Assembly: GCA_026707585.1 (NCBI GenBank)
Contig: JAPOWQ010000005.1
Span: 1 to 40,232, forward strand
Length of the DNA: 40,232 nt
Direction of reading: 5' to 3'
DNA from: Chloroflexota bacterium
GTDB lineage: Bacteria > Chloroflexota > UBA11872
Shown here: in pieces, positions 3-40,232 of the stretch
Layout: each line of letters starts with the position of its first letter
Numbering within the stretch: position 1 is the stretch's first letter
Notes under the pieces: model-generated
Told to the model about the DNA's origin: nothing
Seen by the model: only the letters and a program-made list of their open reading frames with translations
Databases searched by the model: none
Translations under genes and position numbers: made by a program

Positions 3-1316
3 GCCGCCCGCTTCTTCCAGTCCGTCTCCACCACCGGCCGCGTCGCCGGCATCTATGACTTCGAGAACCGGAAGATCTTCTTCAAAGACATCCACGCCTC
101 TTTCAAGTTCTGCGCCCTCATCGTCGGCGGCCCGCAGCGCACGTTCCCCGAGACTCGCTGCTCGTTCTTCCTGCATGACACGGACACCATCAAGGATCCC
201 AACCGCGCTTTCACCCTCACGCCCGACGACTTCGCCCGCGTCAACCCCAACACCGGCACCGCCCCCGTCTTCCGCACCCGCCGCGACGCCGATATCACTC
301 GCCGCATCTACCAGGACCACCCCGTCCTCGTCGACCGCTCCGGAGACGAGGAGCACCGCGTCTGGCCCGTCCGCTACGTCCGCATGCTGGACATGACCAA
401 CGACTCCCACCTCTTCCGCACCGCCGCCCAACTCGAAGACGAAGGCTTCTACCCGGTCCAGGGCAACCGCTGGAAGCGCGGCAATGATCTCTGTGTGCCG
501 CTCTACGAGGGCAAGATGGTCCAGGCCTTCGACCACCGCGCCGCCAGCGTGGTCGTCAATCCCGAAAACCTGAACCGACCCGCCCGTCCACGCCAGACCA
601 CGCTTGAAGAGCACTCAGATTCCAATTGGTCGCCGGACCCGCAATTCTGGGTGAGCGAAGATTCCTATGAGTGGCCGTGGCCGCTTGAATGGGTGCTCGG
701 ATTCAAGGAAATTACCGCGCCTACCAACAGACGGACGGTAATCGCCTCTCTGTTCCCAAAATCCGCGTTCGGGAATAAGACGCCGATCTTTCTGCCCGCC
801 AACGGGGATACGGAGGACTCAGCAGACGCCTACAAGGATTGTGCCCTCCTGCTAGCCGCCAATCTCAATAGCTACGCTCTGGACTTCGTGGCTCGTCAGA
901 AAGTGCATGGACAAACGCTGAACCTCTACCTCCTTGAGCAGTTCCCCCTAATCGCGCCCGACGCCTACCACCGCCGCTTCGGCGACCTCACCGCCGCCGA
1001 TCTAGTCCGAGATTATGTCCTCCGCCTCACCTACACCTCCCACGACATGGTTCCCTTCGCCCGCGACCTCGGCCACCACGGCCCACCCTTCCCCTGGGAC
1101 CCCGCACAACGCCGCCACCTCAGCGCCCGCCTCGATGCCCTCTACTTCCACCTCTACGGCCTCACCCGCGACGACGTCCGCTACATCCTCGATACCTTTC
1201 CCATCGTCAGGCGCCAAGACGAAGCTGAGTACGGCCACTATCGCACCAAGGCACTAATCCTCGCCTACATGAACGCCCTCACCGCCGGGGACACCGTAGC
1301 CCGAGTGGCGATCTAG
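3..1316 (+). CDS. C-terminal part of an Eco57I/type IIG-like restriction-modification methylase (5' truncated by window edge)
   Basis: The frame is open from the left edge to a TAG stop and encodes 437 residues. It lacks the SAM-binding and NPPY motifs, which would lie upstream. What remains resembles the specificity and C-terminal region of large Eco57I-type adenine methylase proteins (type IIG, or the methylase of DISARM/BREX-like systems). Recognisable pieces are FRTRRDADITRRIY, then RMLDMTNDSHLFRT, then YEGKMVQAFDHRAA, a core with FPKSAFGNKTP, and the family-typical end LDALYFHLYGLTRDDV. Such proteins methylate adenine at a target site and in some systems also cut DNA. The exact subtype cannot be fixed from this part. 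Codon use matches a real GC-rich gene and no lesions are seen. It is the only strong defence-gene call at the left end. Confidence 0.8.
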   Translation, partial: AARFFQSVSTTGRVAGIYDFENRKIFFKDIHASFKFCALIVGGPQRTFPETRCSFFLHDTDTIKDPNRAFTLTPDDFARVNPNTGTAPVFRTRRDADITRRIYQDHPVLVDRSGDEEHRVWPVRYVRMLDMTNDSHLFRTAAQLEDEGFYPVQGNRWKRGNDLCVPLYEGKMVQAFDHRAASVVVNPENLNRPARPRQTTLEEHSDSNWSPDPQFWVSEDSYEWPWPLEWVLGFKEITAPTNRRTVIASLFPKSAFGNKTPIFLPANGDTEDSADAYKDCALLLAANLNSYALDFVARQKVHGQTLNLYLLEQFPLIAPDAYHRRFGDLTAADLVRDYVLRLTYTSHDMVPFARDLGHHGPPFPWDPAQRRHLSARLDALYFHLYGLTRDDVRYILDTFPIVRRQDEAEYGHYRTKALILAYMNALTAGDTVARVAI

Positions 1317-3384: not shown

Positions 3385-3682
3385 TCCTCCGCGCTTGGTA
3401 CCAACAACAGGCCCACCGCCAAGGATCGTGGGCATGCACCGTTCGACCCAGCCACCGGAACTCTTCAACGCCAAGCTGCCGCCGCTGCCCCACGGGCCCG
3501 ACGACCAGCGCCGACGGGTGGGCTTGGTCGGGCGGGTGTCGTTCCAGGGCCGTCGCATTCAGGTTCCCAAGGGCCTGCAGGGCAAACTGGTCGCGGTGCG
3601 CCCGACCGTCACGGTCGGCTGCTGGACCGTGCACTTCATGACCGACCAGCTGGCCACCATCGATCTCCGGAAGCCCGCCTAA
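3385..3682 (+). pseudogene. C-terminal remnant of an IS481-family transposase
   Basis: The last 80 or so residues of this frame match the C-terminal beta-rich tail of IS481/integrase-core transposases: GRVSFQGRRIQVPKGLQGKL, then VAVRPTVTVGCWTVHF, then ATIDLR and a TAA stop. The DDE catalytic core is absent. The plausible part starts around the Met at 3434. Upstream residues in the same frame are antisense to the dehydrogenase signal peptide and mean nothing. The element therefore survives only as a 3' scar next to the 5' end of the dehydrogenase pseudogene, whose promoter region it may have disrupted. The call rests on pattern memory of the family tail plus the terminal repeat just downstream. 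Confidence 0.55.
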
Positions 3683-3685
3683 ATG

Positions 3686-3725
3686 TGTAAACCATGTCTC
3701 CGAACGTCTGTAAGCCATGTGTCCG
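3686..3725 (+). repeat. Direct 17-bp repeat typical of an IS481 3' end
   Basis: Two near-identical 17-mers, TGTAAACCATGTCTCCG (3686-3702) and TGTAAGCCATGTGTCCG (3709-3725), lie 6 bp apart immediately after the transposase stop. They differ at two positions. Many IS481 elements end with this kind of TGT-AACCATGT motif, so the right end of the insertion is probably here. The matching left end is not seen. Confidence 0.5.
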
Positions 3726-3870
3726 GTCTGGACACTATCTGGGGGGCGCCTCGCTATCCCGAATCTTCAGCTTCCGCGCCGAGGTCTAGCAACTGAGCCG
3801 TGGGAGCTGCGGTGCATCGCTGCCGCGACGGGCAGGCCACTGCTGTGTCGTCAGTGTTCGACACAGGGAA

Positions 3871-3980
3871 GCGAATCGACCTGCCGATGGGCCGATAGCT
3901 CAACAGCCAAGAGCAGCGGACTTAGGATCCGTGGGCCGTGGATTCAAGAACCACCCGGTCCCACCGGCAGGTCGATTCGC
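3871..3980. repeat. 16-bp perfect inverted repeat enclosing a tRNA-like fold
   Basis: GCGAATCGACCTGCCG at 3871-3886 is exactly complementary to 3965-3980. Pairing continues inward after one mismatch (3887/3964) and with one bulged T (3959), giving about 23 paired bases. The arms therefore extend directly into what would be the acceptor stem of the enclosed tRNA-like sequence. Nothing codes here. It may be a small palindromic insertion, a MITE-like remnant or a structured RNA. Confidence 0.7.
3889..3962 (+). tRNA. tRNA-like cloverleaf, anticodon position UAG, probably degenerate
   Basis: The 74 bases fold as a class I cloverleaf. There is a 7-bp acceptor stem (GGGCCGA/CCGGTCC, with one G-U and one A-C), T8-A9, and a 4-bp D stem GCTC/GAGC. 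The anticodon stem is GCGGA/TCCGT with loop CTTAGGA, the variable loop has 5 nt, and the T arm is GTGGA-TTCAAGA-ACCAC. Faults are the A-A mismatch closing the T loop (normally G53-C61), loss of the GG pair in the D loop, and no CCA. Anticodon UAG would mean leucine, yet bacterial leucine tRNAs have a long variable arm and this one does not. It is better called tRNA-like than a working tRNA-Leu. It sits inside the inverted repeat at 3871-3980. Confidence 0.45.
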
Positions 3981-3985
3981 AGCGG

Positions 3986-4114
3986 TTAGCGGGGCTTCGG
4001 GCGAGGCGGAACTGGCCGCAAGAGCGCCTTCACCAACTGTTCCTGCGTCGCCGTGTTCGGCCGCACCACCACGGGTAGACGGGAGGGTCGCTTCGGTGCT
4101 GGACCCTTGGCCAT
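3986..4114 (-). CDS. Small basic proline-rich protein, 42 aa, function unknown
   Basis: The ATG at 4114 is preceded by a good Shine-Dalgarno sequence (GGGAGAA, 5 nt upstream), which favours it over the longer reading from 4183. The product begins MAKGPAPKRPSRLP and ends RPVPPRPKPR. It is strongly basic, with proline-rich ends around a short helical middle (TATQEQLVKALL). No domain is recognised. The composition would suit a nucleic-acid-binding or surface-binding peptide, but that is a guess. It lies just beside the inverted repeat/tRNA-like structure. Confidence 0.5.
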   Translation of the reverse strand: MAKGPAPKRPSRLPVVVRPNTATQEQLVKALLRPVPPRPKPR

Positions 4115-4225
4115 CGGCTTCTCCCTGCGGTGCACGTAACTCCGGTTTAGGCGCCCCGCGGGTGACCCTGGCACATGCGACACACAGGGTCGGTGACTAC
4201 CAACATGAATCTCATCCGCAGCCAG

Positions 4226-4609
4226 CTACTCCACATGCTTCTGGATGATCGCCCCGAGACCCTGGGCACTCAGCGACGTCTCCAGCTCCTCGGCCTCGGC
4301 CGACAAGTCACGGCAGGCCGACCGCGCTGACTCAGTCTCCCAAAGCTCAGCAATGAGCTCGTCGAAATCTACCTGCTCCCAAAAGAAGCCCCTGCTGATC
4401 TCGTCCAATTCGTGATCCCGGCTGCGCTGCAAGGACTCAAGTTTTCCGGACATGCGGTGACGCAAGATTGCGTAACGGCGATCAGCTGCCGCGCGCTGCG
4501 TCAGGTTCTCGCTGTATCGACGGACCGGCACCTCCGTATCCTGCACGGCCCTATCGTCTGGGTGGGGGTGGTGGCGGCGGGGATGGAGGTCGAGGTGTCG
4601 GGCCGCCAC
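4226..4609 (-). CDS. Helical, charged protein downstream of a SLATT-like gene; start uncertain
   Basis: From about residue 30 this reads as a genuine helical protein rich in Arg, Glu and Leu (RRYSENLTQRAAADRRYAIL, then DFDELIAELWETESARSACR and AEAEELETSLSAQGLGAIIQ). The first 25 residues are His/Pro-rich and unconvincing. In the next frame, an ATG that overlaps the end of the upstream gene opens MPLRKRSVVRKGG followed by a poly-proline run that stops at the GC-rich tract near 4550. The real protein may therefore start there, with a frameshift in the CCCCCACCC-type tract. It probably forms an operon with the SLATT-like gene, and a cytoplasmic coiled-coil role is possible. Confidence 0.55.
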   Translation of the reverse strand: MAARHLDLHPRRHHPHPDDRAVQDTEVPVRRYSENLTQRAAADRRYAILRHRMSGKLESLQRSRDHELDEISRGFFWEQVDFDELIAELWETESARSACRDLSAEAEELETSLSAQGLGAIIQKHVE

Positions 4610-4629
4610 CCTTGCGTACCACCGACCGC

Positions 4630-5148
4630 TTACGCAGCGGCATATTGCGCGTCGTATCCCCGGCCCACGGTTTGCACCGCCTCAATGTGGCAGCGTTCAT
4701 TCAGCTGATCGTCGATCGCAACCCCCACCTCCGGAGAGTTTGCCATGCGCTCGGTGAGGATCGACAGGGTCGTCTCATCATCGACGGGGCTGTCCCACGC
4801 CCGCTGCCAATCGCGTCCCAGCATCGCAAAGTAAGCGTACGCACTCTCAGCCTTGGCCACCGTTCGGGCGTCATTGAGTCGGATCAGCATCAGCACGCCG
4901 GCCCCGGCGCCAAACGAAAACACGAGGCCCAGCCAGTAGACCCACCCCTGGGACGAGAGATGGCCCGCGGTGTTGAGAGCCCCGGCCGCAATCGTGGCGA
5001 CGCCGACGCCACTGACCATCAGGGAATGGCGCCGACGGTACCTGTCGCTGGTCAGCCGGTAGTATTGAGCGCTGCGCTCAGCGTCGATATGGTTGAGCCA
5101 GATCTGTTCGGTGAATCGCTGGTTTCTGCTCATCGAGCGTCGCCGCAT
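4630..5148 (-). CDS. SLATT-like two-helix membrane protein (putative defence effector)
   Basis: The 172-residue product has an N-terminal helical part (FTEQIWLNHIDAERSAQYYR). Two closely spaced membrane helices follow (about residues 43-60, LMVSGVGVATIAAGAL, and 69-90, WVYWLGLVFSFGAGAGVLML), then a long charged C-terminal helix region. This layout, with the pattern of an amphipathic helix then two TM segments then a helical tail, fits SLATT domains (SMODS/SLOG-associating 2TM effectors). These are thought to form membrane pores in nucleotide-triggered defence. No CD-NTase, SLOG or reverse transcriptase partner is visible nearby, so any trigger would have to be the adjacent unknown gene. Start is ATG 5148 or the in-frame ATG five codons later; no strong RBS decides it. 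Confidence 0.6.
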   Translation of the reverse strand: MRRRSMSRNQRFTEQIWLNHIDAERSAQYYRLTSDRYRRRHSLMVSGVGVATIAAGALNTAGHLSSQGWVYWLGLVFSFGAGAGVLMLIRLNDARTVAKAESAYAYFAMLGRDWQRAWDSPVDDETTLSILTERMANSPEVGVAIDDQLNERCHIEAVQTVGRGYDAQYAAA

Positions 5149-5437
5149 GCTGTCGTGCCTAGCCCTGGACGCGGCATCGCGTAGGCCCTCCTACCAACCT
5201 CACAAAAAAGGATACAAAGACTGCCACACCGGCGTCAACGTGTCAAGCGATCCTAGGCCCGGGGGTGAACTGATCCTGCTGGCGGTCGAGTTCTGAGCGC
5301 CAGCAGCAAGCCAAGTAGTCAGATAAGCACATGCCGTTATCAAGGTCAGTGGCTCCGAACGTGAAGGGAGGAACGCCACCGTCAACGGCCGCAGCTTCAG
5401 GTAGTCTGGCCCACCATTCTGCCTGCCCGGAGGAGCC

Positions 5438-10896: not shown

Positions 10897-11574
10897 CTAG
10901 CTCCGAAACACCGAACTAGGATCAACACGAACTCCATCGCGCCAAACCTCGAAGTGCAGGTGCGGACCTGTCGATGCGCCCGAACTCCCAAGACCACCGA
11001 TTGGATCGCCGCGACGAACGCTACCCTTCAGACGCAGCCTAGAGTTGCTGCCGTCAGGTGGCTGCAGGTGCGCGTAGAGCGTCTGCCAGCCGTCGCCATG
11101 CGCGAGGACTACGTAGTGGCCGTAGCCGGCGGGATCCCAGCCAATGGCAGCAACGACGCCATCTCTGGCGGCCAGCACCGGGGTGCCCGGCGATCCGGCG
11201 ATATCGATGCCCCAGTGCGGACACATAACGAACGTGCACCCACCGTAGCGCGTGGTCAGGCGTCCGCGAATCGGCCATCGCCATTCGCCCGTAGACTCGG
11301 TTCCAACCTCCGATCCCTCAGATCCGCCATGCAGTCGCCATCCCTTGGCATGTTCGTCCGCCTGCAGATGTCCGGCCGCGAAGGACCCGGCGACGGCCGT
11401 CTGCAGCAGCATCCCCATGGCCAGCGCCACCGCTGCGGGCAGGGCGCCGATCACAACAACACCGACGAATAGCCACCTGACGGACGGCTCGACCTCGCGC
11501 ATCTGCTCGATTAGGCGTGACACGAGGACACGCGCCAGAATTCGAGCAGCTGCGGTCAATGTGTGCCGAAGCAC
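10897..11574 (-). CDS. M23 (LytM-type) metallopeptidase with N-terminal membrane anchor
   Basis: The 225-residue product starts with a helical, basic N-terminus and one membrane helix (about residues 33-58, VRWLFVGVVVIGALPAAVAL). After a linker comes an M23 domain (about residues 95-225) with the zinc motifs HWGID (HxxxD) and HLHFE (HxH) plus the conserved HGDGW. These enzymes cut peptide cross-links in the cell wall. Placed as the last gene of the secretion operon, it most likely opens a local gap in peptidoglycan for assembly of the channel, the role VirB1 transglycosylases fill in classical systems. The start is GTG 11574, 47 bp after the stop of the TrbL-like gene. All expected metal ligands are present, so it should be active. 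Confidence 0.9.
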   Translation of the reverse strand: MLRHTLTAAARILARVLVSRLIEQMREVEPSVRWLFVGVVVIGALPAAVALAMGMLLQTAVAGSFAAGHLQADEHAKGWRLHGGSEGSEVGTESTGEWRWPIRGRLTTRYGGCTFVMCPHWGIDIAGSPGTPVLAARDGVVAAIGWDPAGYGHYVVLAHGDGWQTLYAHLQPPDGSNSRLRLKGSVRRGDPIGGLGSSGASTGPHLHFEVWRDGVRVDPSSVFRS

Positions 11575-11621
11575 AGCGCCGAGTGCAGGTGCAGAGATGT
11601 CGGACGTCTACTGCGTCGGGA

Positions 11622-12887
11622 TCAGCGACCCGGTCCGCGCAGCGCACCTGCCGATCTCGGAACGGATCGAGCGTCGCGCACCAGATTGCGCACCGTGAGG
11701 TAGTGATGGACGCTGCGTCCCCACACGGACTGCGGCGTAATGGCCGGCAATTCGGCCAGTCCCGCCATGAGCCACCGGGGAAACTGCAGAACCACGCCCA
11801 AGCTGACGATGAGCGTCGCGATCGACAGAAGGCTCGGAGGCTGCGCGGCAACGATTCCAAATACCACCACGAGACCAAACACGATGGCCGCCTTCTCGAA
11901 AACCACCTGGGCCACGCGCTTCATCCACGCGTCCATCAAGCCGCGGGCGAATGGCAGCAGGCTCAGCACCATGACGATCGGTGCTGCGACCACCAGCACC
12001 CAGATCCAGATCAGTCGCAGGGCAAACTTCAGGGCCAGCAGGGCCACCTCAAGCAGGAGCACGAGGTACAACAGGGTCCGGAACAGATCACTCCAAAGTC
12101 CCTCCAAGACTCCCGCCGTCGCCGTTTCACCCCAGCCCCACCGCCTAAAGAGCTCGAGCGGACTGTCGCGATTGATGGCGTCCCCGCCAAGCGCCACGAA
12201 TGTCTGGACGAGCAGATTGTTGAGTTGCAGCAGGGCCTCCACCATGGCGTAACTGCCCAGGGCGAAGCCAACGGCGATCACGGTCTGACCAGCGAAGGCG
12301 CGCAGATCGACCGGCGCGCCCACAAAGACCTTATACAGCGCAAATCCAACAAAGACGGCCACCACCAACGAGACCAGCGGCGTGCTGGCGTTCAAGGCGA
12401 GATCGCGCGTTCGTTCCCACATATCGCGCAACGCCTGGTTGGCCTTCGATGGGATGAAGAAGTCTCGAAGCGCGGTCCCGCCGGGCACCGCGGCAAACGC
12501 CTGATCAAGCTCCCCGCCCGGAGCCGGCTCGATGCTGTCTGGCACGGTGAGCATCCACTCCCACGCCCAGCCCATAGGGGCCTGCAACATATGCGTCAGT
12601 GAGCTGGTGGCCCCGAGGCTCGCGGTCGCGGCCGCCGACTCCGGGTGACGCCACACGGGCGGAAACAGTGCGTTCAACGTTTCTCGAAGCATCTCACCCA
12701 GACGGTCGCCGAGCGGATCAGCCAGGGCGTCGGCGATGCGGCCGGCCGCGTCCCCCGATGTGACCACGTCCGGCTCGTCGGTGTCGGTTACCGTGGACGT
12801 GTCGGCCGGCGCCGGAATACCCACCCCACCGAATACAAAGGCCGCCAGACCCAGGGCCAGGGCAGCCAGCCAGCCGCGCAATGTCAC
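11622..12887 (-). CDS. TrbL/VirB6-like polytopic inner-membrane channel protein
   Basis: The 421-residue product has an N-terminal signal-like helix (1-25), a soluble extracytoplasmic part to about 165, and at least six membrane helices. These lie at about 170-190, 202-222, 268-290, 291-312, 328-348 and 352-370. A soluble basic C-terminus follows (ending SAGALRGPGR). The order of helices and the conserved-type segment ALRLIWIWVLVVAAPIVMVL fit the TrbL/VirB6/CagW group, which forms the membrane pore of type IV secretion. It starts 2 bp after the stop of the VirB4 gene, so it is cotranscribed. Family assignment rests on topology and operon position more than on a signature motif. Confidence 0.8.
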   Translation of the reverse strand: MTLRGWLAALALGLAAFVFGGVGIPAPADTSTVTDTDEPDVVTSGDAAGRIADALADPLGDRLGEMLRETLNALFPPVWRHPESAAATASLGATSSLTHMLQAPMGWAWEWMLTVPDSIEPAPGGELDQAFAAVPGGTALRDFFIPSKANQALRDMWERTRDLALNASTPLVSLVVAVFVGFALYKVFVGAPVDLRAFAGQTVIAVGFALGSYAMVEALLQLNNLLVQTFVALGGDAINRDSPLELFRRWGWGETATAGVLEGLWSDLFRTLLYLVLLLEVALLALKFALRLIWIWVLVVAAPIVMVLSLLPFARGLMDAWMKRVAQVVFEKAAIVFGLVVVFGIVAAQPPSLLSIATLIVSLGVVLQFPRWLMAGLAELPAITPQSVWGRSVHHYLTVRNLVRDARSVPRSAGALRGPGR

Positions 12888-12889
12888 GA

Positions 12890-15439
12890 CTAGTCGAGCG
12901 TCGGCGCCGCTGGTTCCACGCGTCGACGGGTCCGCCTGGCGTCGAGCCGGACGGCCGGCGTCTCCAGGGCCACCCGCTCGCCGGCCCCGATGATTGCCAG
13001 TCCCTGGCCACGCCGCGCCTGCTCGAGCGTAGCTAAGTCCTGATGCGTCAGCGCGAAGGCGTCGCGCAGGGCTCGTTCGTGGGCCGGATGCTGGCGAAAC
13101 AGCAGCGTGGCCGCGCAGTTTGCCAGGATCGCGCGAGTCTTGGTGTTCTCCACGAGCTCTGAGACGTCCTGCGACACCAGAAGGAGCATCGTCTGCAGCG
13201 CTCGCGCCGTCTTGGCCAGTTCGAGGAGAAAGTCGGCACCCTGTTCAGATCGCAGCAGCGTCCAAGCCTCGTCGACAACGATGACGCGCCGCCGCGACTC
13301 CCGGCCCATCCAGTTTCGAAGGTGCAGCAGAATGACGTAGTAGACGAGCGGCAGAATATCGGCCTGATCGGCACGCGGATCGCGGAGCGCAAACACGGTG
13401 CAGTCGTTGTCGAGTTCGACGTTGGTCGGGCGATCGAAGAACGTTGCCAGTTGCCCGCTGGTGAAGCGACGCAGCCGCTCCCCCAGGTCGAGCGCGGCCT
13501 GCCGATACATCGCGTCGTCGCCGTAGCGATCCGCGATGCTGCGCGCAAAGTCGGACGTTGTTGGTGACGGTCGGCGGTATGTCGCCGGGTCGGACGCGTC
13601 GATGGATCGGCGTCGGTAGGTCGGTTCAATGGAGTTATCAATGATCGTGCCCTGCTGGTCGCTGAGTCCGCTCAGCGCCAGTCGCCAGAAGCCGCGAAGC
13701 CCACTTGCCACACGTGCGAAGCCGCGGGCGTCGCTCACGCCGCCGAGGTCCCAGACGTTGATGGCGTGGGCGGTCGCCATGGCCGGCCGTAGCACCCGGC
13801 CGCCGCACACCCGGGCCAGTGCGCCGTATTCGTCCTTGGGATCAAGAATGGTCAGGCTGGCGCCAGACAGCCAGAGGCCGAGGGCGATCTGCTTGGCGCA
13901 GTGGCTCTTGCCACCGCCGCTCTGACCCAAGACGGCCAGGTGGGGGTTCTCATGCTGCGGCCCAAATGGATCAATGATGACCGGCGCATGGCCTCGTCCT
14001 GATCCAACGGTCGTGCCCAGGAAGATGCCCCCGCGCTCGGTCAGGCCGGGCGCGTGGAAGGGCACGGCCGCTGCCAACGGGCCGGTCGTGAGACCACGCC
14101 AACGACCGAGCCGATCGTCGCCCAGCGGCAGCAGACTGCGGAGACCGTCCTGCTGGTATCCGACGACGCGCGAGGCCCCCATGCCGTGGGCCGCCAATTC
14201 CGCCTCGACGTCCAAGGTGGCCTGCTCGAGGGTCGCCGCCGAGTCGGCTCCCACGCCGATCACCACCGAGGTCCGCATGTACCGTTCGCGCGCCCGAAAC
14301 GCTTCGTGCACGTCGTCCAAATCCTCTAAGCGCTGACGTGAGGTCCGCACGACCTCAGGATTGACGTCCTCGCCACGCGCCATTTCGCCGAGCAACTCAC
14401 GCTCCGTCGTGGAAAGCCGCCGGCGCACCTCCCGGTCGTCCACCGGGCGGATGAACAGCGACAGATCCAAGTCGTGTTTCAGCGTCGTGAACCAGCGGAG
14501 CCAGCCAGCCCCTACCTCGCGGGGAAAGCGTCGAAGGGCGAGCGCGCGCAGCCGGCGCGTGTCCGGGCCGGGGCCCTGAATGACCAGTTGGTCCGGCTTG
14601 ACGGCCATCCACTCTGGAAATGGGTCGGCGAGGTCGAACCCCACCCGCGTGACCGGTGGCGCGTCGGTTCGAAACCGCGCCTCGGCGCTTGACGGCGCTG
14701 CATCCAGCACATGGCGCAGCCGTTGGCCCGCCCCCGGGGCCGGGCGAAACAGCCCCTCGACAAGGTCGACCAGGTCGAAGCCATCCAGACGCCGGCTCGC
14801 GAGGCCGGCTCGCGACAGACCGTCGCGAATCATCTGCAGTCGACTATCGCCCATGCCGGAATCCATCGGCTGGCCGTCACGCGCCGAACGCCGCAACCAC
14901 CACGAGCCGCGGGGTTCCAGTGCGTCGTGCGCCACCAGCACAAAACAGCGCACGTGGCGGAGATGCCACTTGCCGTGCGCGGCCTCGAGGGCCTGGGCGT
15001 ACGTGGATGGCCGCCCGGCCTCACCGTCGGCTCCGCCGCCCGGCGTGCCCAACAGGCGACGACGGCGATCCAGCTTCTGATCCCACGCGGCCGACCAGCG
15101 ATCGGTGACATCGCCCAGATAGGCCGATGGATCGAACGCGCGGTTACGAAGCACGATCTGGATCGGACACGGGAGACCGGCCAGGAATTGGGCCAGGCCG
15201 GCCACCGCCGCCGAGATCTGATCCGCCACCATTACTTCGAGGTTCAGCGGTCGCACCGCAAGGACGGCGATCAGGGCCCCATCAGCACGCACGATGCCGT
15301 GCGGCCCTATTTCGCGGATGCCCAGCGAAATCTGTGCCGGCGCATCCGGGTCCGCGTCGTGACCCGCAGTATCAACGTCGCTGCGCGGCTCCGGCACCCC
15401 GGCTGGCTGGTCAACGCGAAACACGGAATCCCCATCCAT
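12890..15439 (-). CDS. virB4: VirB4/TraC-type conjugation ATPase
   Basis: The 849-residue product has an N-terminal VirB4 region. Its C-terminal ATPase part has a Walker A motif (GQSGGGKS, about residues 503-510) followed by LTILDPKDEYGALAR, and a Walker B (RRVIVVDEAWTLL, about 712-724) followed by TARALQTMLLLVSQDVSEL. The last motif is the family's sensor-like SQ signature. VirB4 powers assembly and substrate movement of type IV secretion systems and is their most conserved part. ATG 15439 overlaps the upstream PrgI-like gene by 29 nt. All nucleotide-binding motifs are intact. The size suits VirB4 proteins of the Gram-positive-style (single-membrane) systems. Confidence 0.93.
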   Translation of the reverse strand: MDGDSVFRVDQPAGVPEPRSDVDTAGHDADPDAPAQISLGIREIGPHGIVRADGALIAVLAVRPLNLEVMVADQISAAVAGLAQFLAGLPCPIQIVLRNRAFDPSAYLGDVTDRWSAAWDQKLDRRRRLLGTPGGGADGEAGRPSTYAQALEAAHGKWHLRHVRCFVLVAHDALEPRGSWWLRRSARDGQPMDSGMGDSRLQMIRDGLSRAGLASRRLDGFDLVDLVEGLFRPAPGAGQRLRHVLDAAPSSAEARFRTDAPPVTRVGFDLADPFPEWMAVKPDQLVIQGPGPDTRRLRALALRRFPREVGAGWLRWFTTLKHDLDLSLFIRPVDDREVRRRLSTTERELLGEMARGEDVNPEVVRTSRQRLEDLDDVHEAFRARERYMRTSVVIGVGADSAATLEQATLDVEAELAAHGMGASRVVGYQQDGLRSLLPLGDDRLGRWRGLTTGPLAAAVPFHAPGLTERGGIFLGTTVGSGRGHAPVIIDPFGPQHENPHLAVLGQSGGGKSHCAKQIALGLWLSGASLTILDPKDEYGALARVCGGRVLRPAMATAHAINVWDLGGVSDARGFARVASGLRGFWRLALSGLSDQQGTIIDNSIEPTYRRRSIDASDPATYRRPSPTTSDFARSIADRYGDDAMYRQAALDLGERLRRFTSGQLATFFDRPTNVELDNDCTVFALRDPRADQADILPLVYYVILLHLRNWMGRESRRRVIVVDEAWTLLRSEQGADFLLELAKTARALQTMLLLVSQDVSELVENTKTRAILANCAATLLFRQHPAHERALRDAFALTHQDLATLEQARRGQGLAIIGAGERVALETPAVRLDARRTRRRVEPAAPTLD

Positions 15440-15845
15440 GGCGGGTGATGATCGTTGGCTGCGGCTCCGTCAGGTCAACGCGATACAGGGGTTCCGGAAG
15501 CGAAGCCCGCCATGTCCGCGTGCGCGGCTGGCGCCGGCGACCGAGCAGTCGTGGGCCGGTCCAGTAGCGGGCCATGGCCAGCAGATACCCGTCGAGGGGC
15601 ACCTCGTTGACCCGAACCCGCATGAGCGACCAGCCCAGGAGCACCGGCACGGCCAGCGCAAAGCCGGCCAGCGGTCCGATTCCAACCAGGGGGACCAGCA
15701 CGCTCAGCAACCCAAGTTCGAGCGCCCCGAGAACTAACAGCCAGCACAATTCGCGACTCGTCAGGCGAAACCCACCGAGCGGCCAACGCGTCGGCACGCG
15801 CTCCAGGTCCTCAGGAATAACAAACCGAGGCGCTGGATCCGTCAC
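15411..15845 (-). CDS. PrgI/VirB3-like small membrane protein
   Basis: The 144-residue product has two close membrane helices (about residues 29-53, ELCWLLVLGALELGLLSVLV, and 58-76, LAGFALAVPVLLGWSLM). Before them is a short conserved-type N-terminus (RFVIPEDLERVPTRW), and after them a basic tail with RTRTWRASLPEPLYRVD. A gene of this size and topology immediately before virB4 is the usual place of PrgI/VirB3 proteins, which anchor VirB4 to the membrane. GTG 15845 overlaps the pilin stop by 4 nt (GTGA), showing translational coupling. Confidence 0.8.
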   Translation of the reverse strand: MTDPAPRFVIPEDLERVPTRWPLGGFRLTSRELCWLLVLGALELGLLSVLVPLVGIGPLAGFALAVPVLLGWSLMRVRVNEVPLDGYLLAMARYWTGPRLLGRRRQPRTRTWRASLPEPLYRVDLTEPQPTIITRHGWGFRVSR

Positions 15846-16174
15846 GTCCGACCGCCCAACGTGTTGACCAGGAATTCCACGGCGCTCTGCAGCAGTCCGA
15901 AATTGAAAGCCATCACGAGCCCGTAGATCAGCAAGGCCTGCATGGCAAACCGGCGAGCATCAATCTGCGCATCCACGCTGTTTGAGGTCCATGCGGCAAT
16001 GGCCTTCCACCCGATGGCCGCCGCAACGACCAGGCTGGCAATCGCGGCCAGAAAGCCCTTGAGCGATTCGACGGCAAAGGTGATCGGATCGGTCTGCGCA
16101 AGGACCGACGCCGGAACCGCGGTCGCGAGAGCCGCGAAGGCGAGCGCCAGCAGGGCCCGTCGACGCGCGGTCAT
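15842..16174 (-). CDS. VirB2/TrbC-like pilin precursor
   Basis: The 110-residue product starts at ATG 16174, overlapping the stop of the upstream ATPase (ATGA). It has a cleavable signal peptide (basic start MTARRRALL, hydrophobic core, likely cleavage after PASVLA). Two hydrophobic helices follow (FLAAIASLVVAAAIGWKAI and ALLIYGLVMAFNFGLL), separated by a short polar loop (SNSVDAQIDARR). This matches VirB2/TrbC pilins, which are small two-helix inner-membrane proteins extracted to form the pilus or channel lining. Position before prgI and virB4 supports it. Confidence 0.8.
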   Translation of the reverse strand: MTARRRALLALAFAALATAVPASVLAQTDPITFAVESLKGFLAAIASLVVAAAIGWKAIAAWTSNSVDAQIDARRFAMQALLIYGLVMAFNFGLLQSAVEFLVNTLGGRT

Positions 16175-17562
16175 ACCAGCAACTCGTTGGCCCGTGCGGT
16201 CGCGGTGGGGCGTGGCGTCGCCGAATCTCGCCCGAGGCCGCGCAGCACGCGTCGGACCAGCGCGCCGAGCCCGCGACCGTCGCCGTCGTCGCGGGAAATC
16301 CGCGGCCGCGTGAGACCCAGCCGCTCGGCAAGATTGTCGAAGGCCGCGCGAAAGGGCTCGAGCTCGTCGATCATCCAACTGTGCGGTAGCTCGCCGCGAC
16401 TCTGCGCCACCGCGATATACGGGTGCGCATCGGGGACAGTCCCAATCAGCGGCACGTCGAATCCAACGCCTTCGGCGATCATGGTGGCGATCTCGGCGAT
16501 CCGTCGGCGATCACCCGACCGCACCCGGTTGAGCAGCAGGAAGAGTCGATCCTCGGGCATGAACTCCGGTCCGACGTCGCGTCGAACCATCGTGATATCG
16601 CGGATGGCGTTGACCACGTCCGCCTGCGCCGGCGTCACCACATACAGGACGCGATCCGCCCGCGCCAACGGCTGGAAGCGCCAGTGGCTGTACTCGGTCG
16701 GCAGCGTGACCACGACGGCTCCATAGGGAAAGTCGCGGGCTGTCACCAGTAATTCCCGAATGAGATTCGGCTCGTCGCGGTCGAAGCGCGCATTCCACTG
16801 CGCCGCCAGGTGGTCGTCGGCCAATCCCACCATCAGGTGGAAGTTGCGGAAGCGCTGGAGGCCGGCCGCGAAGCCGTCGCGACTGGGCTGGCGCAGAAAG
16901 GCCGCCACGCCCGGAGCCGGATCAGCCCCGCAGTAGGCGGCCAGGTCGTCTTTCGGATCGCCGCCGATCAGCAGCACGGGCACGTTGCGTTCGGCAATGG
17001 CCCAGGCCAAGTTCGACGCGATGGTGTCTTTGCCGATCCCGCCTTTCCGGGCGGTCACACACACGATGGATCGGCCGGCCGGTGGAACGGCCAACCGCTC
17101 CGCCAGGCGTTCCGCTGCAGCCGTCTCCTTCTGCCGAGCTCGGCCACGCGCTGCCCGGGCGGCCTCCCCAATGGCCAGCGCGCGCGTGAGGACCTGGCCG
17201 GCGTCGATGGGGCGCACCGCAACCTCGGCAACGGCAGACAAGCGCTCGAGCTCGTCTCCCAGGTCTTGGTCCCACACTTCGATGAGCACCATCGCCCGCC
17301 GGCCGAGGGCGTGGACGTGGGTCAGGAACGCCACCAGACCACTCCCGGCATCGTCCGGGAAGAGTTCGGCCCCAACGATCGCCACGTCCGACTGGCTGGC
17401 CGCCACGTGTCCGGCGGCATCCGAACCGTCGGTGGTGAGACCGGCCAGCTCCAGTCGGCGGTCGCCGAGGCTATGCATGGCCGTGCGCAACTCCTGGATC
17501 TCCGCCGACCGCAGCAGGCACATATGCACCCGAATCGGGAGGGCCGTTCCCTGGTCGCTCAC
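16171..17562 (-). CDS. CpaE/MinD-like P-loop ATPase with receiver-like N-terminus, first gene of the secretion operon
   Basis: From GTG 17562, 12 nt after GAGGAG, the product is 463 residues. A longer reading from 17721 adds an Arg/Pro-rich segment that looks non-coding. Residues 1-120 form a receiver-like alpha/beta domain without a clear phosphate acceptor. The MinD/ParA domain starts with the deviant Walker A ARKGGIGKDTIASNLA (about 167-182). It continues with LLIGGDPKDD, the switch-like GAVVVTLPTEY and the base motif LFLLLNRVRSGDRRRI. The usual GKTT/GKST is GKDT here. CpaE proteins localise Tad pilus machinery, so here the protein may place the type IV channel or drive substrate hand-over. 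The C-terminal 50 residues are basic and disordered-looking. Confidence 0.82.
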   Translation of the reverse strand: MSDQGTALPIRVHMCLLRSAEIQELRTAMHSLGDRRLELAGLTTDGSDAAGHVAASQSDVAIVGAELFPDDAGSGLVAFLTHVHALGRRAMVLIEVWDQDLGDELERLSAVAEVAVRPIDAGQVLTRALAIGEAARAARGRARQKETAAAERLAERLAVPPAGRSIVCVTARKGGIGKDTIASNLAWAIAERNVPVLLIGGDPKDDLAAYCGADPAPGVAAFLRQPSRDGFAAGLQRFRNFHLMVGLADDHLAAQWNARFDRDEPNLIRELLVTARDFPYGAVVVTLPTEYSHWRFQPLARADRVLYVVTPAQADVVNAIRDITMVRRDVGPEFMPEDRLFLLLNRVRSGDRRRIAEIATMIAEGVGFDVPLIGTVPDAHPYIAVAQSRGELPHSWMIDELEPFRAAFDNLAERLGLTRPRISRDDGDGRGLGALVRRVLRGLGRDSATPRPTATARANELLV

Positions 17563-17850
17563 GTTGGGTTGGGACTCCTCTGGTGACGCGAGGCGGCGGC
17601 GTCGGGGAGGCGCGACGCCGCCGCCGGCGTGGGGGTGCGCGCCGTCTGCGCGCTGGAGCCACGCTAGGCGCACGCGTCGCCACGGGGTATCCAGGATTCC
17701 GTAAACGTCGCCGGGCGGCATCGCCGCCGCGTCGGTGTGAGCACACGTGCACCGGCCGCCGGCTTGCCGGAGCAGGACGGGTTGAGCGGACGCCCGATGC
17801 CGTCACGCGTCGCGCGGCGGCGCGACGCATCGCCAGCGAACCCGGCGACG

Positions 17851-34628: not shown

Positions 34629-34855
34629 CGCGCCTTGCGACCAACGAACACCTTTTCTCAAAACGGAAGTGACGCGCTGACGCAGTTCTGCCCGCAGTCA
34701 TCCCAGACGAGCGCGATTTGTGTGCGTCGGCATGCTGCATCTTCCGATCCGCTCTACTTCTGGTTGTACGTGAGCACTCGTCCTGCGCGCAGTCGCGGCG
34801 GCATCGCCTGTCGCCGTCCATTCCGCTCGCCGGGGAACGAAGGAGCAGGCGATTC

Positions 34856-40232
<5,377 letters not shown>

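Follow-up and report, generated by a model that had tools for sequence, protein, structure and literature searches.

A degenerate tRNA-Lys-like segment whose acceptor stem runs on into a perfect 16-bp inverted repeat in a Chloroflexota genome

The window analysed here is the first 40,232 nucleotides of contig JAPOWQ010000005.1 of a Chloroflexota bacterium (assembly GCA_026707585.1), in which a tRNA-like segment framed by a long palindrome was found at positions 3871-3980 (Table 1). Near its 5' end the window holds a C-terminal piece of a type IIG restriction enzyme-methyltransferase (384-1316, plus strand; PADLOC, E = 1e-7). A remnant of an IS481-type element ends near position 3736, about 135 bp upstream of the palindrome, in agreement with an initial reading made from the sequence alone (referred to as the sequence-only reading), which had placed an IS481-like element about 140 bp away. 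Downstream, the minus strand carries a possible 42-aa ORF (3986-4114), for which no relatives were found, a 127-aa ORF and a 172-aa protein (4630-5148), which probably has two membrane helices and showed weak similarity to the SLATT domain below the cut-off (E = 0.019). Relatives of the 172-aa protein were present in 7 other genomes, all of the same genus and with up to 38% identity, and no palindrome was found near them. An IS1595 transposase is encoded farther downstream, and a conjugation-type (TraC/VirB4-like) ATPase, an M23 peptidase and a ParA-like protein follow each other in a row at 10897-17721 on the minus strand, a probable integrated conjugative element or remnant of one. The region has the appearance of an island in which mobile and defence genes are numerous. 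What we take to be rpoB, read from its translation, lies at 34718-38317.

Table 1. Features in and around the tRNA-like segment (positions are those of the window)
Feature	Positions	Strand	Sequence or basis
IS481-type element remnant: C-terminal transposase piece (3434-3682) and right end	3434..3736	+	
Small second hairpin just upstream of the palindrome, with 8-bp perfect arms	3843..3866	.	CTGTGTCG/CGACACAG
Left arm of the perfect 16-bp inverted repeat	3871..3886	+	GCGAATCGACCTGCCG
GAT directly 5' of the tRNA body, shared with tRNA-Lys leaders of the genus; includes mismatch base A3887	3886..3888	+	
tRNA-like segment, nearest to tRNA-Lys(UUU), class I shape, degenerate	3889..3962	+	Rfam RF00005, identity to own tRNA-Lys
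Anticodon TAG (UAG), loop CTTAGGA	3923..3925	+	Sequence and RF00005 alignment
Bulged T of the acceptor stem (palindrome register)	3959	+	Sequence
ACC 3' of the body, as in tRNA-Lys genes; G next, hence no CCA	3963..3965	+	
Right arm of the perfect 16-bp inverted repeat	3965..3980	+	CGGCAGGTCGATTCGC
Possible 42-aa ORF, may not be a gene; ends 6 bp from the palindrome	3986..4114	-	

The segment between the arms had been described in the sequence-only reading as a 74-nt fold of class I tRNA type with anticodon UAG, and this description held: the RF00005 covariance model gave 43 bits at 3889-3962 (gathering score, 29), with TAG at 3923-3925 and a class I variable loop of 5 nt, while ARAGORN made no tRNA call at the same positions. 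The nearest tRNA in the source genome was tRNA-Lys(UUU), with 76% identity to the body, and the top match in related genomes (78%) was likewise a tRNA-Lys. The D and anticodon stems are intact, and U33 and G37 are present. The D-loop (AACAGCCAA) is without its GG, the 53-61 pair is lost by an A/A combination, the acceptor stem is bulged, and the 3' end reads ACCG, with CCG in place of CCA. The anticodon loop is identical to that of the source genome's own Leu(UAG) (contig C23), a normal class II tRNA with a long variable arm; an identity as bacterial tRNA-Leu(UAG) was rejected on the 5-nt variable loop, where a long arm is required. Since the tRNA set of the source genome is broad, Leu(UAG) included, even when the tRNA-like segment is left out, the segment is not needed for decoding, and it is unlikely to function as a tRNA.

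The source genome collects tRNA relics. Two low-scoring tRNA-Ala(GGC)-like genes (L045:2001-2073 and L046:2001-2073, on G000:C54 and C24; 38.8 and 36.5 bits) were observed alongside a normal Ala(GGC) at C4. In a Leu-type tRNA-like gene (L044:2001-2113, corresponding to G000:C50:6662-6774), for which ARAGORN gave no call, a 28-nt hairpin (CTTGCCG...CGGCAAG) interrupts the anticodon arm.

The second structural claim of the sequence-only reading, a perfect 16-bp inverted repeat that continues the acceptor stem to about 23 pairs, was borne out by counting, one mismatch and one bulge being allowed. The outer stem consists of 16 perfect pairs (3871-3886 with 3965-3980) and ends inward at a single mismatch, A3887/C3964. 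Inside the mismatch T3888 pairs with A3963 and GGG (3889-3891) with CCC (3960-3962), and past the bulged T3959 there are three further acceptor pairs (3892-3894 with 3956-3958), giving a stem of 23 pairs interrupted by one A·C mismatch and one bulged T. Complementarity between the 21-nt arms 3871-3891 and 3960-3980 is 95%. In shuffled windows, perfect 12-mer inverted repeats (loops of 30-120 nt) appeared 0.6 times per 40 kb window, from which a perfect 16-mer is estimated to be expected about 0.003 times even when abutment on a tRNA is not yet required. Given this expectation and the register of the arms with the acceptor stem, the probability that the palindrome arose by chance is negligible. 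The fold of 3866-3985 had an energy of −59.7 kcal/mol (z = −4.8), which was equalled by 0 of 200 shuffles, and among the 47 other tRNA genes of the source genome the longest perfect match between leader and trailer was 10 and the next 7.

Copies and relatives of the element were sought at several levels. The sequence-only reading had called for a search for further copies of 3871-3980, and none turned up in the source genome, where the arm 16-mer was searched as well, or in the relatives searched. The arms were absent from 18 other genomes of the family and from 400 sampled genomes of the phylum (BLAST), and exact-arm pattern scans of viral and genome collections gave no match. The BLAST matches obtained in the family, the phylum, plasmids and phages were tRNA bodies (Lys, Met), IS481 ends and short chance matches only; no homologous locus was found in relatives by family and phylum BLAST, nor was an empty site. 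Scanning viral contigs with a 14-mer of the arm proved too unspecific, and no palindromic neighbour was present among the loci inspected. With R1, a generic 'tRNA + outer stem' covariance model built from synthetic rows, 24 genomes of the order and 41 of the class yielded ordinary tRNAs only, with no comparable outer stem, and the same model was empty over 400 genomes, which says little since 10 candidates were scored per genome. A pattern of class I D-arm plus UAG, run over the 400 phylum genomes, revealed no clear class I UAG tRNA elsewhere; the two other matches were a misread Lys(UUU) and a sequence that did not look like a tRNA. By the terms set in the sequence-only reading, no other copies and no covariation in relatives, both mobile and functional readings of the element are weakened; no homologues were found that could be aligned for covariation of the stem. 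Readings as an integron attC, a T-box, a retron or an oriT were dropped on inspection, the required boxes or partners being missing.

The 17-mer of the anticodon arm had four matches in genome contigs, of which one was a normal Streptomyces Leu(UAG) and the rest were not tRNAs. This Streptomyces gene (L123:477-600), whose anticodon arm is the same as that of the element, has a hairpin on either side, the downstream one with an 18-bp stem.

On balance, we favour, with only modest confidence, the reading that the element is a decaying single-copy paralogue of tRNA-Lys and that its flanks became a palindrome through fold-back template switching in replication; its origin would most likely be a copying accident, and not that of a working or mobile element. 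A tRNA-Lys paralogue stranded in the island of mobile and defence genes would have decayed there, and its cloverleaf would have folded while the DNA was single-stranded. Pairing at the acceptor end (GGG/CCC, T-A and G-C) would then have primed the growing strand, which would have read off some 15 nt of the flank on the other side before switching back. No function would be required, the hairpin acting perhaps as a passive transcript end or processing site. Such a switch would account for the single copy, the perfect outer pairs, their start at the native flanks and the one retained mismatch. The perfect arms start where the tRNA-Lys-like flanking bases end (leader GAT, trailer ACC), the match to GAT being one of three bases only, and the sole mismatch of the outer stem sits between these native flanks, with both native bases kept. 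In being a single-copy, near-perfect inverted repeat that extends an imperfect hairpin, the element has the properties by which template-switch palindromes are recognised. Inverted repeats are known from E. coli to be created or perfected by template switching (PMC7202029), a process also inferred to be a source of stems in RNA genes (PMC8794818). If true, this would be a natural case in which a long perfect hairpin grew from a tRNA fold in a single step, and new RNA stems could come about in this way.

Some observations speak against this reading. The state before the switch was seen in no relative, and the three changes in the anticodon loop produce precisely the loop of Leu(UAG), G37 included, which does not look like simple decay. 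Moreover, a perfect 16-bp stem beside a core diverged by 24% needs either a recent origin or maintenance by selection, so that selection on a structural RNA is conceivable.

A structural RNA of this kind, with the tRNA-like domain at the tip of a non-coding RNA stem as in a GOLLD linker and left by a phage or conjugative element, is the foremost alternative, although we regard it as rather unlikely; its stem would position the tRNA-like part, which would not be meant for release or charging. A structured non-coding RNA had also been among the options of the sequence-only reading, whose interpretation, unlike its observation, is supported only in part. The alternative draws on viral contigs, which were searched with a slightly stricter form of the class I D-arm plus UAG pattern. 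This search gave 14 contigs with class I tRNAs matching UAG, mostly in tRNA arrays, and the flanks of these tRNAs were more complementary than those of other tRNAs (means of 7.9 and 5.4; Mann-Whitney p = 5e-6, uncorrected for shared ancestry). Single flank tests reached p < 0.02 for 3 of 12 class I UAG tRNAs compared to 6 of 123 others, and phage class I UAG tRNAs tend to lie in inverted repeats. Three of them, each enclosed by a stem, lie inside a GOLLD RNA (L265, 1962-2428; L273, 3186-3683) or a partial GOLLD match (L266:9932-10144). The GOLLD linker has been reported to hold tRNAs (PMC12286853) and a mycobacterial GOLLD to contain a pseudo-tRNA (PMC6582537), and the island around the element has conjugation-type genes. 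On the other hand, the GOLLD covariance model (RF02032) had no match at E < 10 within 3400-5400 of the window, while a similar search detects GOLLD in L265, L273 and L266; none was found in the source genome, in a search that gave no positive-control match. In addition, the stems of GOLLD do not run on into the acceptor stem, tRNA-Arg(UCU) occupies the corresponding position in the homologous GOLLDs of Phaeobacter phage MD18 and phage DSS3_MAL1, the body of the element is nearest to a host-type tRNA-Lys and not to a phage tRNA, and no phage genes were recognised adjoining the element. If a structural RNA were nevertheless present, hairpin-enclosed tRNAs would extend beyond phages and GOLLD into the chromosome. 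It seems distinctly unlikely that the element is a separate chromosomal RNA that presents a class I UAG tRNA-like fold on a long stem, with a design related to that of the hairpin tRNAs of phage arrays and GOLLD, and that serves as a decoy or tether and not as a decoder.

Within phage tRNA arrays, tRNAs were also observed in two-part hairpins (L262:3340-3510, L263:7430-7590, L274:590-760 and L274:1050-1210), three of them with UAG and one with UGU. Paired changes distinguish the two L274 copies (AAAACAG/CTGTTTT and GAAATAG/CTATTTC), and no Rfam family except tRNA matched the hairpin regions of the three contigs, which may represent an undescribed hairpin-enclosed tRNA arrangement.

We give little credit to the idea that a neighbouring transcript is terminated or processed here, at a hairpin that incorporated a tRNA fragment and is retained for its stem. 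The strong fold and the possible minus-strand ORF ending 6 bp away would suit it, but the long stem has no T tract, the only terminator-like call was a short inner hairpin of 5 bp, and the adjoining ORF is without known relatives. A mobile tRNA-derived palindrome, as proposed in the sequence-only reading, or more specifically a small MITE-like element with 16-bp terminal inverted repeats carrying a tRNA, is improbable. Its terminal inverted repeats would indeed be perfect and transposase genes are near (the IS481 remnant and IS1595); however, the element is single-copy with arms found nowhere else in the genomes and collections searched, no convincing target-site duplication was seen by eye around it, and the register of the arms with the acceptor stem would be needless for a transposon. 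Direct repeats around 3807/4125 align over 10 nt only. A mobile-element reading is not needed, whether a relic or a structural RNA is the case.

A relic of the site at which an integrative element had attached to a tRNA gene, for which the island-like region with its conjugation-type ATPase could be cited, is very improbable: when an element integrates site-specifically, the repeats of the tRNA 3' end that it leaves are in direct orientation, whereas those seen here are inverted, no second copy of the tRNA end was found in the window, and no integrase was among the proteins searched. The version in the sequence-only reading, in which an IS481-like element had copied such a relic, is not supported: the tRNA-like segment does not accompany the IS481 right end where this recurs in relatives, and IS481 elements transpose by the DDE mechanism and do not recombine at tRNA sites. 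Least credible of all is a working class I tRNA reading CUA codons. In its favour are the UAG anticodon, U33 and G37, the fact that class I UAG tRNAs occur in phages, and the intact D and anticodon stems. Against it, CCA, the D-loop GG and the 53-61 pair are lacking, the two ends lie within a 16-bp stem expected to impede RNase P, and the source genome already has Leu(UAG).

Compared with known systems, the element resembles tRNA-Lys(UUU) genes (RF00005) and their pseudogenes in its 76-78% identity, class I shape and flanking GAT/ACC, and differs from the genes in its UAG anticodon, the loss of the D-loop GG and the 53-61 pair, the bulged acceptor stem, the absence of CCA and the enclosure in a 16-bp perfect stem. 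With quasipalindrome template-switch mutations (PMC7202029, PMC8794818) it shares an imperfect hairpin that gains a perfect stem, in one event and in a single copy, whereas in the present case a tRNA cloverleaf would have served as the seed, and the event is inferred rather than directly seen. The closest known architecture is that of the GOLLD-linker tRNA (RF02032), where a tRNA or pseudo-tRNA, in some cases class I UAG, is likewise enclosed in an RNA stem; in GOLLD, unpaired linkers separate the stem from the acceptor, whereas in the element, which has no GOLLD core, the stem is continuous with it.
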